DNA from: Amniculibacterium aquaticum | GTDB lineage: Bacteria; Bacteroidota; Bacteroidia; Flavobacteriales; Weeksellaceae | DNA length: 46,374 nucleotides | Direction of reading: 5' to 3' | Assembly: GCF_003852705.1 (NCBI RefSeq) | Contig: NZ_REFA01000019.1 | Span: forward strand, 1 to 46,374 | Shown: positions 18,007 through 23,669 of the stretch, one piece after another | Layout: the number at the start of each line of letters is the position of its first letter | How positions within the stretch are numbered: position 1 is the first letter of the stretch | Notes under the pieces: model-generated | What the model saw: the letters and a program-made list of their open reading frames with translations, nothing else | Databases searched by the model: none | Told to the model about the DNA's origin: nothing | Position numbers and translations under genes: made by a program

Positions 18007-18075
18007 CAACAAGTGTTCGTTGAGAATTGTTGATCTAGGATAAGAAATTAAGTGCTGTAGGTCAGGTATGTAGAT

Positions 18076-18110
18076 AAAAAAAGTGCTGCCTTGTGTTAGA
18101 GCAGCACTTT
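18076..18110 (-). terminator. Strong terminator downstream of the TraQ-like gene
   Basis: A perfect ten-pair stem AAAGTGCTGC/GCAGCACTTT (18080-18089 with 18101-18110) has an 11-nt loop and a run of seven U on the minus strand. It ends both the TraN-TraO-TraQ-like operon and the candidate small RNA. Confidence 0.9.
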
Positions 18111-18150
18111 CGTCTTAGTTTAATAATTTTTCTTCTTCATCTGTGTTTCG
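18076..18150 (-). ncRNA. Candidate ~75-nt small RNA
   Basis: A promoter with an exact -7 box (TAACTTTG, 18162-18155) and an upstream 14-bp motif would start transcription near 18150 and end at the terminator at 18076. No gene fits in this transcript. The one short frame, starting ATG AAG AAG, encodes six residues (MKKKNY) and has no evident ribosome-binding site. Start and end are inferred, not measured. Confidence 0.5.
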
Positions 18151-18154
18151 AGGA

Positions 18155-18162
18155 CAAAGTTA
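18155..18162 (-). promoter_or_regulatory. -7 box of the candidate small RNA
   Basis: TAACTTTG matches TAnnTTTG exactly; its start is 28.5 bp from the centre of the motif at 18184-18197. Confidence 0.55.
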
Positions 18163-18180
18163 GAAATTCGAGATCCATTA

Positions 18181-18200
18181 TTTTACGGGAAACCGTAAAA
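18181..18200 (-). promoter_or_regulatory. Palindromic regulator motif upstream of the candidate small RNA
   Basis: The sequence is TTTTACGG-GAAA-CCGTAAAA, with perfect eight-base arms. Its core TACGGGAAACCGTA is 13/14 identical to the motif before the TraN-like operon, in the same orientation and at the same distance from the -7 box. The likely binder is the response regulator encoded at 21280-21945. Confidence 0.6.
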
Positions 18201-18230
18201 ATGGCAAATTTCTTTGAATTTTGTTTAGCC

Positions 18231-19694
18231 TTATTGTACAGAATAGTTGTAGTCGGCATACCAATATCCATTAACACTAGGGTTAACGGTTGTTTTTTGA
18301 CCTTGGTTGTCGTAAACTGTAATTTCTGCATTTAGATTATCCTGACCGCTCCAATCGCCATGCGAAATGTATGCTGAAGAGTCTTTGAAACCATATATCG
18401 TCTTTTCTGAATGGTGGTTTAGGTTTGTTTCATTAGGGTTTTGGGTATAAGTAAAAGTCTTATCAAACCATTTGTTGCTTGCTATACTTCTGAACTTTAA
18501 CTTTACCTCAATTTTTGAAATTTTGTTGTTATAGTTAGCCGTTGCGTTCAGGTCGTTTATTTTTACTTGTCCTACATAGTGCGAGTTGCTATCTGCTTTA
18601 TAAATCGTGAAAATTAGATTCGGTATTCCGTTGATCGTCATCGGGGTATTTACGATGATGTTGAAACTCTTGATTTCCGTTTCGTTGCCGAATTCGTCTT
18701 GAGCTTGAATGTTGAGGGTGTAATTTCCTATTTCTAAAGTTTCAAAGTTGAAATTAAATGCTCCATTGTTCCCTAAAGCATACGGAACAAAGGTATTGTT
18801 GGTGGTTTGTATGCCTGAATTGTTGTTGTTGGACGCAGATGAAATCCAAGTTTTGTACTTTATAGATGTATTGGTGTTGTTTGGAGATTTTTTTATAATT
18901 CCAGTAATGTTAAGATTGGAATTGATAGGTACAGCTGTTGAGTTGATTTGAATGTTTTCAAAAGAAATTTGTCTCTTTTTTACTTCATGTTGTATTTCGT
19001 AATCTTTAGAAGTTGTGGAGTTTCGGATGGTATAATCAAGTTTTTGTTGGCCAGCGATAGTTGTGTTTAGGATTACATTGAATTCATCCAAATTATTGAT
19101 GGGGTAAAATTGACCCAAGCTTGCGTGTGCTCCATTGTACTTGATGTTTCCAGAATAATTATTGAATCTTATTTCGTAACCGGTTGTGGGTTGGTTGTTT
19201 CCAGGAACAATCTTCATGGTGTATTGGGAGCTGTCTCCTTGGTAGGTCTCCGTAATTCCTCCTGTATAGGTATGTGTGAAACTGGATACTCCATATTTTA
19301 ATAGAAAATCTTCTTGAATGCTAAATTTCTTATCGTTGAAGACTGTGATTTTTAGCTGGTGCTCTCCAGGGGCATTACCAACATATTCAAAAATGTTATC
19401 ACTTTTTGTAAATGTATATTCTTGATTGGGATTAAGAATTTTATTGTTCAGTTTTAAAACTCCTGAAAGAGTATTGTCAAATTTAAATTTTGTAGGAAGA
19501 GCGTTAAAGTTGTATTGGGTTTTTAGATTGAACTTTAACGATTGAGCTTCTCCCATCCCTTTTTCACTGAATTGATAATCTCTATCTACGGTTAACCTAA
19601 ATTGTACATGGTTTTCCCAATCGCCATCTTCTCTACACGATTGAAGAAACGATAGGCTGAGAAGGGTAAGGAAAAAATAATAAATATTTTTCAT
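18231..19694 (-). CDS. Large TraQ-like (DUF3872-like) repeat lipoprotein
   Basis: This is a 487-residue lipoprotein (lipobox LQSC, Cys20, followed by RED). Residues about 25-130 resemble the immunoglobulin-like TraQ domain of Bacteroidota conjugative transposons (FKFDNTLSGVLKLNN, then EYTFTKSDNIFEYVG). The fold pattern appears to repeat about three more times (roughly 135-240, 241-350 and 351-487), each with a beta-rich core such as YTLNIQAQDEFGNE. Classical TraQ is a single small domain, so this is an expanded relative. It is last in an operon, 17 bp after the TraO-like gene. Family assignment rests on pattern and on gene order; function is unknown. Confidence 0.65.
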   Translation of the reverse strand: MKNIYYFFLTLLSLSFLQSCREDGDWENHVQFRLTVDRDYQFSEKGMGEAQSLKFNLKTQYNFNALPTKFKFDNTLSGVLKLNNKILNPNQEYTFTKSDNIFEYVGNAPGEHQLKITVFNDKKFSIQEDFLLKYGVSSFTHTYTGGITETYQGDSSQYTMKIVPGNNQPTTGYEIRFNNYSGNIKYNGAHASLGQFYPINNLDEFNVILNTTIAGQQKLDYTIRNSTTSKDYEIQHEVKKRQISFENIQINSTAVPINSNLNITGIIKKSPNNTNTSIKYKTWISSASNNNNSGIQTTNNTFVPYALGNNGAFNFNFETLEIGNYTLNIQAQDEFGNETEIKSFNIIVNTPMTINGIPNLIFTIYKADSNSHYVGQVKINDLNATANYNNKISKIEVKLKFRSIASNKWFDKTFTYTQNPNETNLNHHSEKTIYGFKDSSAYISHGDWSGQDNLNAEITVYDNQGQKTTVNPSVNGYWYADYNYSVQ

Positions 19695-19711
19695 GAATGA
19701 TTCGTTTGTTT

Positions 19712-20263
19712 TTAGTTTAAGTTGTATTTCAATCCTCCAAAAATTCCAAATTTCGATTTAGAAAAATCACTTTTTAAATCAAAAAATTGACTGTAGTCGG
19801 CAATAATGGAAAATCTACGATTGATATTGTATTCCACTTCTAAAGCTCCACTAACACCGTAGATCATTCCTTTTACTTTAGATGGAATTGGTGCGTGGTA
19901 TTTGGAGTCGTACTCTTTGCCTTCATTGATTTTTTCATAGCCTCCATAGAGACCTAACCAAGCATTTATAAAAAATGGAGAAAACCTTTCGAAACTGTAA
20001 CCGGCAGACACACCGGCTCCGTATTTTTCATAAGGTAAAGACTGATTGTCAATGTAAGCAACCTTGTAATTCTGATAAAAAACTTCAGATTTCCCCAGAA
20101 ATCCTTGGTCTCCAAAGACCTTGCCGTATCCCGCTTTTATCATGCTTCCATTATTGGTGAAGCCGTATTGAGCATGGATGGAAGCTTGATTTTTTCTTCT
20201 GCCTTGAGCTTGGAGACTGATGGTGATTAATACGAATAGGGCGGTGAAATATTTATTTTTCAT
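19712..20263 (-). CDS. TraO-like outer-membrane beta-barrel protein
   Basis: This 183-residue protein has a signal peptide (residues 1-20, ending LQAQG) and alternating beta strands closing with FGIFGGLKYNLN, typical of an outer-membrane barrel terminus. Features such as HAQYGFTNNGSMIKAGYGKVF and GVSAGYSFERFSPFFINAWLGLYGG fit TraO of Bacteroidota conjugation systems by sequence style and length. It sits between TraN-like and TraQ-like genes, in the order known from conjugative transposons. A general porin-like barrel is the alternative reading. Confidence 0.68.
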   Translation of the reverse strand: MKNKYFTALFVLITISLQAQGRRKNQASIHAQYGFTNNGSMIKAGYGKVFGDQGFLGKSEVFYQNYKVAYIDNQSLPYEKYGAGVSAGYSFERFSPFFINAWLGLYGGYEKINEGKEYDSKYHAPIPSKVKGMIYGVSGALEVEYNINRRFSIIADYSQFFDLKSDFSKSKFGIFGGLKYNLN

Positions 20264-20272
20264 GTTGATGGT

Positions 20273-21148
20273 TTAGTTGATGAATTCAGCTTTTTCTAGA
20301 AATTTTGATTTTATGTCCAAAGCTATTTTTCTTCCACCGTTCTTTTCAGTCATGACGAATTGTAGATTCTTTTGATCGATAAGCACCGTTTTATCAAAGA
20401 TATAAACCATTTTGGTGAAGGTGTTATTGGGTAGTTGCTCAGGCTGATAACTGAAAAGAGGGAAAATTGTTTTTACCGTAAACGGCTCTTGGGCGAAAAT
20501 GTTTTTGGGTTGGTCTGTGCTTGAAATAAAAGATGCATCTTCAATATGATAACTGCTCGTGGTTTTGTTATCAAATTCTAGCATGATGAAAATTTGATTT
20601 TGATTAAAATAAACACCTTTTACAAAACCTTCTATTCCGTCCATGTAGGCAGAATTTCTATTGTTGATCCAACCTTTCTGACCCAACAGCTTATCCGTAA
20701 TTTGATGATAGTTCGAGCTTTTAGGCTCTGTTTTTTCAGAAGAAATTAGAAGTTTCGCTTTTTCTTCTTTTTGGGAAATAGTACTTTCTTTATTTTCTAA
20801 AGATTGATTCGTGAATTGGGGTTGAAAGCTGGTCGTACTGATGTTGAGATGATCCTTGGCCGGTGTTGCAGACGGAGTTACTGGTGAGGCACTGCTTTTT
20901 TTATTGGTTTTGAAAGTAATGGTAACGGTAGTGCTTTCAGTATCGGAATCTTGAATAACTTCGTAGTTTTGGTTGCTTTTTTTTGCAACCATTACAGCCG
21001 ATTTGGATTTAGCTTTTAATGTTTTATTGCTTTTTTTGGTAATTAGAGATTTTTTAGCAGATTTAACTACTGCTTTTTTCTTCTTTACAGACTGTGAGTT
21101 TGCCATCACCCCAAATAGGAGCAATGATGAGAATAAAATTTTTAACAT
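20273..21148 (-). CDS. TraN-like (DUF4138-like) exported protein
   Basis: This 291-residue protein has a signal peptide (1-19, VMANSQ) and a Lys/Ser-rich stretch to about residue 60. A low-complexity linker leads to a C-terminal beta domain (about 150-285). That domain contains IFIMLEFDNKTTSSYHIEDASF and a closing segment KMVYIFDKTVLIDQKNLQF then EKNGGRKIALDIK, which match the characteristic pattern of DUF4138/TraN, where KFTIPDxKxLxIExxEKxGGR recurs. TraN is thought to be part of the outer-membrane complex of Bacteroidota type IV secretion. Here no secretion ATPase or other tra gene accompanies it. First gene of a three-gene operon. Confidence 0.68.
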   Translation of the reverse strand: MLKILFSSLLLFGVMANSQSVKKKKAVVKSAKKSLITKKSNKTLKAKSKSAVMVAKKSNQNYEVIQDSDTESTTVTITFKTNKKSSASPVTPSATPAKDHLNISTTSFQPQFTNQSLENKESTISQKEEKAKLLISSEKTEPKSSNYHQITDKLLGQKGWINNRNSAYMDGIEGFVKGVYFNQNQIFIMLEFDNKTTSSYHIEDASFISSTDQPKNIFAQEPFTVKTIFPLFSYQPEQLPNNTFTKMVYIFDKTVLIDQKNLQFVMTEKNGGRKIALDIKSKFLEKAEFIN

Positions 21149-21224: not shown

Positions 21225-21232
21225 CAAAAATA
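21225..21232 (-). promoter_or_regulatory. -7 box of the TraN-TraO-TraQ-like operon
   Basis: TATTTTTG matches TAnnTTTG; a 5' leader of about 70 nt follows before the ATG at 21148. A partial copy of the regulator motif (TACGGGAA) lies just downstream at about 21208-21216. Confidence 0.65.
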
Positions 21233-21253: not shown

Positions 21254-21267
21254 TACGGGAAACCATA
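21254..21267 (-). promoter_or_regulatory. Regulator motif upstream of the TraN-like operon
   Basis: TACGGGAAACCATA lies 28.5 bp (centre) from the start of the -7 box, a class II activator position near -40. It differs from the small RNA motif at a single base. Confidence 0.6.
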
Positions 21268-21279
21268 AAAAAATAAACT

Positions 21280-21945
21280 TTATACAATTCCCAAGTCTTT
21301 ACAGAAAGAAATAAGTTGCTCGTTACTCGAAAGGTGAAGGGATTTTCGGAGTATGTTTAATCGTTTTTCGATAGAACTTAAGCTGTTGGGTTTTAGGTTT
21401 TTATCTTGAAGTAGGGTAGGGATGTCCTTTTGCGCAACTCCTTGTGAGATGAGTTGGAGAAGGGTGATGTCGTAATTTGTAAACTCATAACTATTCATCT
21501 TTTTAAAAGAATTTCTGGTCTCGGATGAGATGTATTTTTCTCCCAAATATACTTTTTCGATGGCTGTTTTTAGTTCCTTCATATCGTTTCTCCCCTTGTG
21601 TACAAAAGAATCAATGCAATATTCTTGAAATAAATTTTGAATAATACCGTCTTTTTTTTCTGCTGAAAAAACAATAATTTTTGTTTCCGGCTTCAATCTT
21701 TTTACTGCTTTTATCAAATCAAAACCCGATTTTAGATTCTGTTCGTTTTCATCTTCATCAAAAGACAGATCCGTAATCAGAACTTCATAGGGTTGTTTGG
21801 CTTCTATCGCTTGGTAGATTTTATGATAAGCATCATCGCAATAACTGGAATATTGTGTTTGGTGTATTTGCAATTCGTGCAGTGCTTTTTGAATGGACAG
21901 ATTGGTACTTTGGTAGTCTTCTGCAATAATGATTTTATGAAACAT
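21280..21945 (-). CDS. Response regulator with a LuxR/NarL-like DNA-binding domain
   Basis: This 221-residue protein has an N-terminal receiver (about 1-125) with the acidic pair Glu9-Asp10, phosphoacceptor Asp59 in VLITDLSF, and Ser/Lys switch residues in IVFSAEK and FVHKG. The C-terminal helix-turn-helix (about 155-221) is a divergent LuxR type, TLLQLISQGVAQKDIPTLL then SIEKRLNILRKSL. Its ATG is 2 bp after the stop of the sensor kinase gene. It lies immediately upstream of the TraN-like operon and is the natural candidate for binding the shared TACGGGAAACC motif. Confidence 0.85.
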   Translation of the reverse strand: MFHKIIIAEDYQSTNLSIQKALHELQIHQTQYSSYCDDAYHKIYQAIEAKQPYEVLITDLSFDEDENEQNLKSGFDLIKAVKRLKPETKIIVFSAEKKDGIIQNLFQEYCIDSFVHKGRNDMKELKTAIEKVYLGEKYISSETRNSFKKMNSYEFTNYDITLLQLISQGVAQKDIPTLLQDKNLKPNSLSSIEKRLNILRKSLHLSSNEQLISFCKDLGIV

Positions 21946-21947
21946 GA

Positions 21948-23669
21948 TTATCGTATTGGAAAGTTGAAATTTATTTTAAATCCTTTGATTTTTGTGTCGT
22001 GATCAGGAATTGTTAATGTCCCATTGTGTTTTTTTATACGATCCAAAAGGTGCTTCAGTCCATTGCCTAAAGTGGTACTTTGGTTGAAGATGCCTTCGCC
22101 GTTGTCGTTAAAATTCACCTCTAACTTTTCATTTTTAAGTTCAAATTTCAAAACAATTCTAGATGCATTTCCATGTTTTTTTGAATTGATGAACAATTCT
22201 TGAATAATGATGTAGAGGTCGTTGTGGATTTTTTGAGGGACTTGTTTCCAAAGGCGGTCTTCGTTTCCAATAACAAAGACCTGTAAGTTTTCATTTTGGA
22301 AAGTTTCTGCCACTTCAGAGATTTGCTCTTTGATGTGGTCCGGAGCCAAAGGCAGGTGTCCATCATAAGAAATATCTCTGGATTTTTGGTACATCTTTTC
22401 CAATTGATCCATCAATTCATTTTTTTCTAAATCTTCTCGATGTTCCAAGGCAGACATCATTTGGTACAAACCATTGGCTACCACATCGTGCACTTTTTTG
22501 GAAGTGGACAGTCGTTCCTCTTTAATTTTATTGTCTGCAATCAGTTTTATTTTCTTTTTTCTTGCTCGAAGCCAGATGTAGCCACCCGTAGTGGTGCTAA
22601 CCAACAATAAAGCAACAAAAAATAAAAGTACATTTTTCTGACTGATGTCTTTTTCAAGTTTCAGATTGTCACTCAGGTTTTTTTCACTTTCATATCGGAT
22701 GATGGCAAATTGATTTCTCGATTTATTACCGTGGACGGCAATGCTGTCGGATATTTTTGAGAATTTGACAAAATATTTCTGAGGCTGTGGATCGTATTTG
22801 ATGATGTTTTCCAAAGCTTCCAATTCATCCGTTGGCGATTTAAGTTTTTTAGAGACCTCGTACATTTTTTTTGCAAAATACAATGCCGAGTCCGATTTTC
22901 TATCTTCGTAATATTCAGAAAGATAACAGTAAGTTGCCGCCAATCCCCATGAGTCCTCAACTTTTTGATAATGTCTTTCGGCTTCTCTTAAATTTTGTGT
23001 TGGGTTAATATTCGGTTGATCATGCCAAAGATAACGGGACTGGTTGATTAGGGCTTTATAATAATTTTCATTGTCTTTAGATAGTCCATAAACCACAAGA
23101 TTTTGGATGTCATGCGCTCTTTTGAATTCTTTCTTTTTGAAGTAAACAATGGCCAAATTGTGCATGCTTCTCAATCTCTGTATGTCTTCCTGGACAAATG
23201 CCAATGATTTCAAATACAACTTCTCGGCCTCATTATAATTTTTGAGACTTGTAGAATTGGTTCCTAAATTAATATAATTGTCAAAAAGCAACTCGTAGTG
23301 GTCTTTTTCATTTTCATGCAAAAGTTTTATGGCAGCAATACTGGTCTCTATGCTGCCCAGATTATCACCACTGTATTCTTGGATGATGGCCATTTCGGTT
23401 AAGCATCTCGAAGCCCAAATGCTGTCTTTGTTGTTCAGATACCCGTCTTTGGCAAGGTTGAATTCGTAAAATGCTTTTTCATCTTTCCCTTCATTGACAT
23501 GCTTTGTGGCTTTTTGATAGAGCGAGTCAATTTTCTTTTTTTCGATGAGATTAGGATTGGTTTTCTTAGTGCACGAAATGACTGTGTACGATGAAATGAT
23601 CAGGAAAATAATATTAGTCCAGATCGATGTTTGTTTTTTTTGTAAAATGAAATTTCTGTAAGAAATCAT
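21948..23669 (-). CDS. TPR-containing sensor histidine kinase
   Basis: This 573-residue kinase starts with a signal peptide having a lipobox-like Cys33 (TVISC). It then has about six tetratricopeptide repeats in the periplasm (about 45-310), a membrane helix (347-367) and a cytoplasmic HisKA_3-type kinase. The phosphoacceptor is His394 in KKVHDVVANGLYQMM; the N box is QELFINSKKHGNA and the G box DNGEGIF. Periplasmic TPR-sensor kinases are widespread in Bacteroidota; their ligands are mostly unknown. It is the partner of the regulator gene that follows. Confidence 0.9.
   Translation of the reverse strand: MISYRNFILQKKQTSIWTNIIFLIISSYTVISCTKKTNPNLIEKKKIDSLYQKATKHVNEGKDEKAFYEFNLAKDGYLNNKDSIWASRCLTEMAIIQEYSGDNLGSIETSIAAIKLLHENEKDHYELLFDNYINLGTNSTSLKNYNEAEKLYLKSLAFVQEDIQRLRSMHNLAIVYFKKKEFKRAHDIQNLVVYGLSKDNENYYKALINQSRYLWHDQPNINPTQNLREAERHYQKVEDSWGLAATYCYLSEYYEDRKSDSALYFAKKMYEVSKKLKSPTDELEALENIIKYDPQPQKYFVKFSKISDSIAVHGNKSRNQFAIIRYESEKNLSDNLKLEKDISQKNVLLFFVALLLVSTTTGGYIWLRARKKKIKLIADNKIKEERLSTSKKVHDVVANGLYQMMSALEHREDLEKNELMDQLEKMYQKSRDISYDGHLPLAPDHIKEQISEVAETFQNENLQVFVIGNEDRLWKQVPQKIHNDLYIIIQELFINSKKHGNASRIVLKFELKNEKLEVNFNDNGEGIFNQSTTLGNGLKHLLDRIKKHNGTLTIPDHDTKIKGFKINFNFPIR

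Follow-up and report, generated by a model that had tools for sequence, protein, structure and literature searches.

We propose that a two-component system of Amniculibacterium aquaticum activates a small, probably base-pairing RNA whose gene goes with the response regulator (RR) gene in the genus, a reading that we consider likely from the comparisons described here. The window, by which we mean the whole stretch of 46,374 nucleotides that was analysed, contains the candidate RNA gene, the two-component genes and the elements that are predicted to join them (Table 1). In the proposed mechanism, the histidine kinase and RR (21280-23669) would switch on a small non-coding RNA gene: a phosphorylated dimer of the NarL/RcsB-type RR would bind the palindrome TACGGNNNNCCGTA, centred at -40.5 (-41.5 in most relatives), where a -33 element would be, and would bring RNA polymerase to a sigma-A promoter whose -7 box is good, as in class II activation. 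The resulting 75-nt RNA, ended by an intrinsic terminator, would most likely pair with mRNAs through its unpaired, conserved 5' part. Between the RR and the small RNA, the window's genome has a TraN-like operon, which carries a putative operator copy of its own. Judged from its anatomy and evolution, the small RNA gene is real, conserved and linked to the RR, the RNA itself being predicted; what we infer beyond this is RR binding, activation rather than repression, transcription, base-pairing and targets.

Table 1. Features of the two-component locus and of the predicted small RNA gene in the window.
Feature	Coordinates	Strand	Remarks
Predicted 75-nt small RNA	18076..18150	-	from sequence anatomy
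Intrinsic terminator hairpin	18080..18110	-	T-run reaching 18076
Unpaired 5' part of the RNA, GAAAnACnnATGAmGAAGAA ... AACTA	18111..18149	-	conserved in three genus genomes
-7 box TAACTTTG, sigma-A consensus TAnnTTTG	18155..18162	-	consensus and position as excerpted from PMC9723704
Palindromic operator TTTTACGG-TTTC-CCGTAAAA, predicted RR binding site	18181..18200	-	8-bp arms perfect; centre about -40.5
487-aa protein, lipoprotein-type start (by eye)	18231..19694	-	Ig-like and Y_Y_Y matches sub-threshold
TraO-like or outer-membrane barrel-like protein	19712..20263	-	below Pfam cut-off
TraN-like (DUF4138) protein, first operon gene, between RR and small RNA	20273..21148	-	above Pfam cut-off
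-7 box TATTTTTG of the TraN-like operon	21225..21232	-	
Further copy of the operator, TATGGTTTCCCGTA, preceding the TraN-like operon	21254..21267	-	14-bp core: one base different
Response regulator, receiver and NarL/RcsB-type DNA-binding fold; proposed activator	21280..21945	-	
Sensor histidine kinase with TPR repeats	21948..23669	-	

The candidate unit lies on the minus strand, with the ORF of the 487-aa protein on one side and a pirin gene on the other. An earlier note on this DNA had described an exact -7 box and a palindrome at this place, and both were located on that strand. In Flavobacterium psychrophilum the -7 box occupies -12 to -5 (excerpts of PMC9723704), which sets the predicted +1 at 18150 and the length of the RNA at 75 nt. 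The terminator arms, AAAGTGCTGC (18110-18101) and GCAGCACTTT (18089-18080), form 10 pairs around an 11-nt loop; the span of about 75 nt that the note had described, with a ten-pair terminator and no credible gene, thus reappears at 18150-18076. By sequence, the unit consists of a promoter-like site and an intrinsic terminator with no gene between them, the arrangement of a candidate small RNA gene. The box TAACTTTG alone is unremarkable (4 occurrences in the window vs 3.2 expected). At the Rfam gathering score there was no match in the window or in the related loci L065, L095, L124, L125, L128 and L129, and the four weak Rfam matches at 18050-18230 were all below cut-off.

Conservation was examined in three genomes of the genus, namely the window's own (G000) and those of two congeners, G001 and G002, the last an assembly of 460 contigs that is 90% complete. 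In both congeners palindrome, box, RNA and terminator follow straight behind the RR gene, and the neighbours past the RNA match the window's by eye, with a gene for a pirin-like protein in G001 and for a protein like FMN reductase in G002. As a check on its reading, the earlier note had asked whether related genomes keep motif, box and terminator in this order; the order was found in 3/3 genus genomes, the window's included. Identity across the 5' part of the RNA (the stretch from box to terminator) was 34/45 for G000-G001, 29/44 for G000-G002 and 24/44 for G001-G002. In the same pair order, 20/45, 19/45 and 11/42 fourfold sites of the RR gene were unchanged, the promoter spacer was identical at 7/18, 6/19 and 8/19 positions, and the terminator at 14/35, 17/35 and 16/35. 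Positions identical in all three genomes made up 23/45 of the 5' part vs 20/96 of the upstream, spacer and following sequence (Fisher p 4e-4), a comparison that leaves out the terminator (10/35 identical in all three). Shuffle tests of RNA similarity gave 0/1000 for G000-G001, 3/1000 for G000-G002 and, for G001-G002, 119/1000, which is not significant. When the RNAs were folded, the 5' part was single-stranded in all three and the terminator was the sole structure formed; its stem sequence differs among all three genomes, and the hairpin is kept. Across the three genomes, the predicted RNA is conserved and has an unpaired candidate seed region.

We then compared the RNA with the TraN-like operon, to which the earlier note had tied it. 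The measurements behind that link were reproduced: the 14-bp cores of the two window copies differ by one base, and at both copies, which have the same orientation, the palindrome centre lies 28.5 bp from the first base of the box. The link itself did not hold. Neither G001 nor G002 has a TraN match and both have the RNA, and we rejected the operon as the partner of the RNA on this ground; of the three genus genomes, that of the window alone has it between RR and RNA. Because the congeners without a TraN match keep the RNA behind the RR, it is the RR gene that the RNA accompanies, and on this comparison of genomes the RNA is independent of the TraN-like operon. Furthermore, a search for related loci with the TraN protein as query found none, and no palindrome was seen, at up to 2 mismatches, in L006-L017, loci of roughly 3.4 kb that hold the 12 nearest TraN relatives elsewhere. 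The match of the first operon protein to the TraN model was far below the NCBIfam cut-off, and the gene that had been called TraQ-like, which encodes the 487-aa protein, had no TraQ match in Pfam or NCBIfam, searched to E 0.01 and E 1, respectively. In the window, the TraN/TraO-like genes at 18231-21148 stand under the predicted RR operator.

The proposed activator was characterized by alignment and structure prediction. Asp59 and Lys117 of the RR are invariant in 12 aligned sequences, and the best structural matches of its AlphaFold model (mean pLDDT 82.7, pTM 0.65) are full-length NarL-type regulators, headed by spr1814 and RcsB, at TM of about 0.5-0.6; the top matches include RcsB-DNA complexes, and one of these contains the rprA promoter. 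By alignment and model, the RR is of the NarL/LuxR type, with a phospho-acceptor aspartate and a helical DNA-binding output domain; its Pfam match covers the receiver only and is just below cut-off. The Riemerella pair RAYM_RS09735/09740 was rejected as the same system, being OmpR-type (excerpts of PMC5399024). The kinase is similar to LiaS-type kinases, at a score far below cut-off.

The combination of operator and box was searched for as the exact pattern TACGGNNNNCCGTA-N21/22-TAnnTTTG (hereafter the composite) in 320 genomes of the family, which we take to be the Weeksellaceae. It is present in 233/320 genomes and the reversed control in 0/320, which excludes chance. Genomes with a close RR match (E < 1e-10, a class that includes distant paralogues such as G212) carried it in 228 of 242 cases, leaving 14 without an exact copy; the counts were 4/20 for weak matches and 1/58 for the class without an RR, meaning genomes outside the listed RR matches. 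The co-occurrence of motif and RR has a p of about 1e-46 over the 320 genomes, uncorrected for ancestry. Together with the conservation in the genus, this tracking of the RR by the motif supports the suggestion of the earlier note that a regulator controls a small RNA here, as far as sequence comparison can carry it.

The geometry of the composite was examined in 80 named loci (L124-L203), which were fetched by RR homology and are hence not a random sample. There, 140/178 palindromes are flanked on one side by a box across a gap of 21 or 22, and among 145 oriented palindrome-box pairs at gaps 0-60 the gap is 22 in 138, 21 in 2 and elsewhere in 5. The palindrome centre is at -40.5 in the genus and at -41.5 in most other relatives. 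Since this is the position of class II activators, and since the palindrome covers the place of a -33 element, activation is the likelier sign. A composite lies at most 250 nt from the RR end in 72/80 named loci and at most 150 nt before the RR start in 56/80 (in the loci checked, where the kinase gene ends), both counts using a wider motif pattern than a stricter one that gave no motif in more loci. The copies before the RR start suggest autoregulation of the RR in the named loci; in the window, no such site was listed before the RR start at up to 3 mismatches.

The same loci bear on whether the palindrome might be the site of another regulator, such as a paralogous RR, or whether the RR might repress here, both of which we regard as quite improbable. 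In some loci a paralogous RR is also preceded by a composite, so that the site might serve a sister RR, and the pairing of operator and RR is itself predicted; however, the motif co-occurs with the window's RR family and the composite stands at one or both ends of the RR gene. Repression fits poorly with the class II position, which leaves no space for a -33 element. Activation by the RR is the reading that we retain for the composite. Four exact composites occur in the window's own genome: at the small RNA, at a signal-peptide-like gene, at a gene of contig C37 and at an RNA divergent from cas9. The second (C7:62050-62093, L080) precedes a gene that is likely another regulon member and whose start, by eye, resembles a signal peptide, and the third (C37:9675-9718, L081) lies about 106 bp before the ATG of a lysine/glutamate-rich gene (by eye).

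Behind the RR, most named loci carry a small-protein ORF at this place. An ORF of at least 45 aa begins within 130 nt of the box in 61/72 named loci with a composite behind the RR. The 11/72 loci without such an ORF are those of the two congeners, three Elizabethkingia, four Chryseobacterium (with an RNA of the C. panacisoli type), C. taiwanense and L148, the last of which is a broken protein cassette; L138, by sequence a fifth C. panacisoli-type RNA, was counted as having an ORF only since a 54-codon frame runs on through its terminator. Ten cassette proteins were tested and gave DUF1508, DUF3892, DUF6232, an HSDR_N-like match, one sub-threshold DUF4177 and five without a Pfam match. The slot looks like a composite-driven, exchangeable site for small-protein cassettes. 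With an ORF in 61 of 72 loci, it is conceivable that the window's unit is a decayed cassette, in which the gene was lost and the promoter, the first codons (MKKKNY-stop) and the terminator were left without function. The RNA does begin with an AUG followed by a lysine-rich stretch, and L148 holds such a gene copy broken by a stop at codon 38. Even so, we judge decay to be unlikely, because palindrome (20/20, 18/20), box, 5' part and terminator form are kept across three species that agree at only 44, 42 and 26% of fourfold sites.

A functional RNA, which we prefer to a remnant, has counterparts in the same slot, where orphan RNAs occur in some Chryseobacterium and Elizabethkingia. In C. culicis (L126) and Chryseobacterium sp. 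CH21 (L127) the orphan RNA is the second unit after a protein cassette, which is the order of the window. The 19-nt core of the Chryseobacterium-type RNA is exact in 12/320 genomes, each time 0.1-2.2 kb behind the RR and on the RR strand; of the hits at 1-2 mismatches that were traced, the one in G141 (1 mismatch) is beside the RR and the others lie elsewhere, and the reversed control scatters similarly. Homology of the RNAs among the three genera was not significant in shuffles of 21 pairs, except that G002 was marginally similar to the C. panacisoli type (10/1000) and to Elizabethkingia (12/1000), values that are uncorrected for the 21 pairs. These counterparts also speak to the idea that the RNA is a tiny mRNA encoding a micropeptide (MKKKNY, MKKKRQMN, MTKNY). 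In all three genus members an AUG follows the box at 14 nt and a stop comes early (by eye), but the products would be 5-8 residues long with indels between species, L126 and L127 of the Chryseobacterium type have no AUG in the 5' part, and the frame is shifted in L138 and L140 relative to L129 with the nucleotide core preserved. Conservation of the AUG-led micro-frames does not extend to the reading frame, and a coding role is very hard to credit.

The remaining exact composite of the window's genome (C2:81691-81733, L065) lies at the promoter of the RNA divergent from cas9, and the anti-repeat of that RNA pairs with the CRISPR repeat of the locus at -25.2 kcal/mol (-30.6 in G001, where a composite at C38:41766, L095, likewise precedes the tracrRNA). 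In G002, which has the RR, the palindrome is absent from both tracrRNA-like stretches. With a palindrome of at most 2 mismatches, an exact box and a gap of 21/22 as the test, the composite faces the tracrRNA in 31/66 cas9-upstream regions with the RR, 0/19 without it and 0/1 with a weak RR match (p 7e-5 for the association, shared ancestry uncorrected), and it faces cas9 in 0/86. These 86 regions (among L204-L233 and L294-L349) comprise 30 fetched loci, 16 without and 40 with the RR, 164 genomes having a cas9 match; the 40 were chosen mainly for a match near the start of the protein, and G117 is counted twice. Among the 35/66 RR-bearing regions that fail the test, several have degenerate sites or one extra spacing base (by eye), and a failure may reflect a region or a tracrRNA placed elsewhere. 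Rfam did not match the tracrRNAs either. Downstream of the tracrRNA, L065 also shows another tracr-like tail and an additional hairpin resembling a terminator on the minus strand (~1250-1214, ~1360-1335; by eye).

These results make two-component control of Cas9 immunity possible, and the operator shared by small RNA and tracrRNA promoters implies that one sensor may steer several regulatory RNAs. We give about even chances to a broader proposal, in which the NarL/RcsB-type system would drive a regulon centred on non-coding RNAs, made up of its own 3'-flanking small RNA, the type II tracrRNA (with operator and box spaced alike) and an exchangeable small-protein cassette behind the RR gene, and a sensed, perhaps envelope, signal would switch Cas9 immunity through the supply of tracrRNA. 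According to excerpts of PMC12216829, the assumption has been that CRISPR-Cas9 transcription does not depend on physiology, and in Streptococcus agalactiae a distal cas promoter is repressed by CovR. CvkR, of the MerR type, represses a CRISPR-associated transposase at a type V-K system (PMC9938897). Transcription regulators act on CRISPR loci in both cases, as the RR may at the tracrRNA.

Targets of the RNA were sought in two ways. The complement of the seed at up to 1 mismatch gave no signal in any genus genome, with 25 sites in the window's own genome (the RNA gene included) vs 23 for the control, 35 vs 34 in G001 and 33 vs 29 in G002. Duplex energies with the start regions of 44 chosen window ORFs were no better than those of 60 shuffled seeds (best z -2.3, mean +0.3). 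A search of one open-access library, mostly at title level, turned up no work on the RNA or on an RR that controls tracrRNA in these bacteria.

The predicted arrangement resembles known systems in part. As with RcsB and RprA of enterobacteria, a NarL-type RR would activate a small RNA gene, which is here a prediction aided by structural comparison of the regulators; RprA acts with Hfq and rprA is not beside rcsB, whereas the RNA gene described here is near the RR gene. GacA controls the small RNAs RsmY and RsmZ, which, as here, have a palindromic site upstream. That site lies further upstream, and RsmY and RsmZ sequester CsrA through GGA motifs; in contrast, the 75 nt of the window's RNA contain no GGA repeats (by eye). 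Among small RNAs of Bacteroidota, GibS of Bacteroides thetaiotaomicron recalls the window's predicted RNA: by its description in excerpts of PMC7366714, its 5' part is conserved and mostly single-stranded, and it pairs close to start codons, but GibS is about 145 nt long and sugar-responsive and the RNA predicted here has 75 nt. Rfp18 of Flavobacterium psychrophilum is a conserved flavobacterial small RNA that is predicted to be strongly structured, and the excerpted account (PMC9723704) mentions no RR-linked operator, in contrast to the unpaired 5' part and the predicted operator of the window's RNA.

Taken together, these results provide a concrete flavobacterial small RNA candidate with a likely regulator and a sharply defined operator geometry. 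Its counterparts in culturable genera (Chryseobacterium, Elizabethkingia) make the class testable, and the operator before the tracrRNA offers a testable case for sensor-controlled Cas9 immunity.
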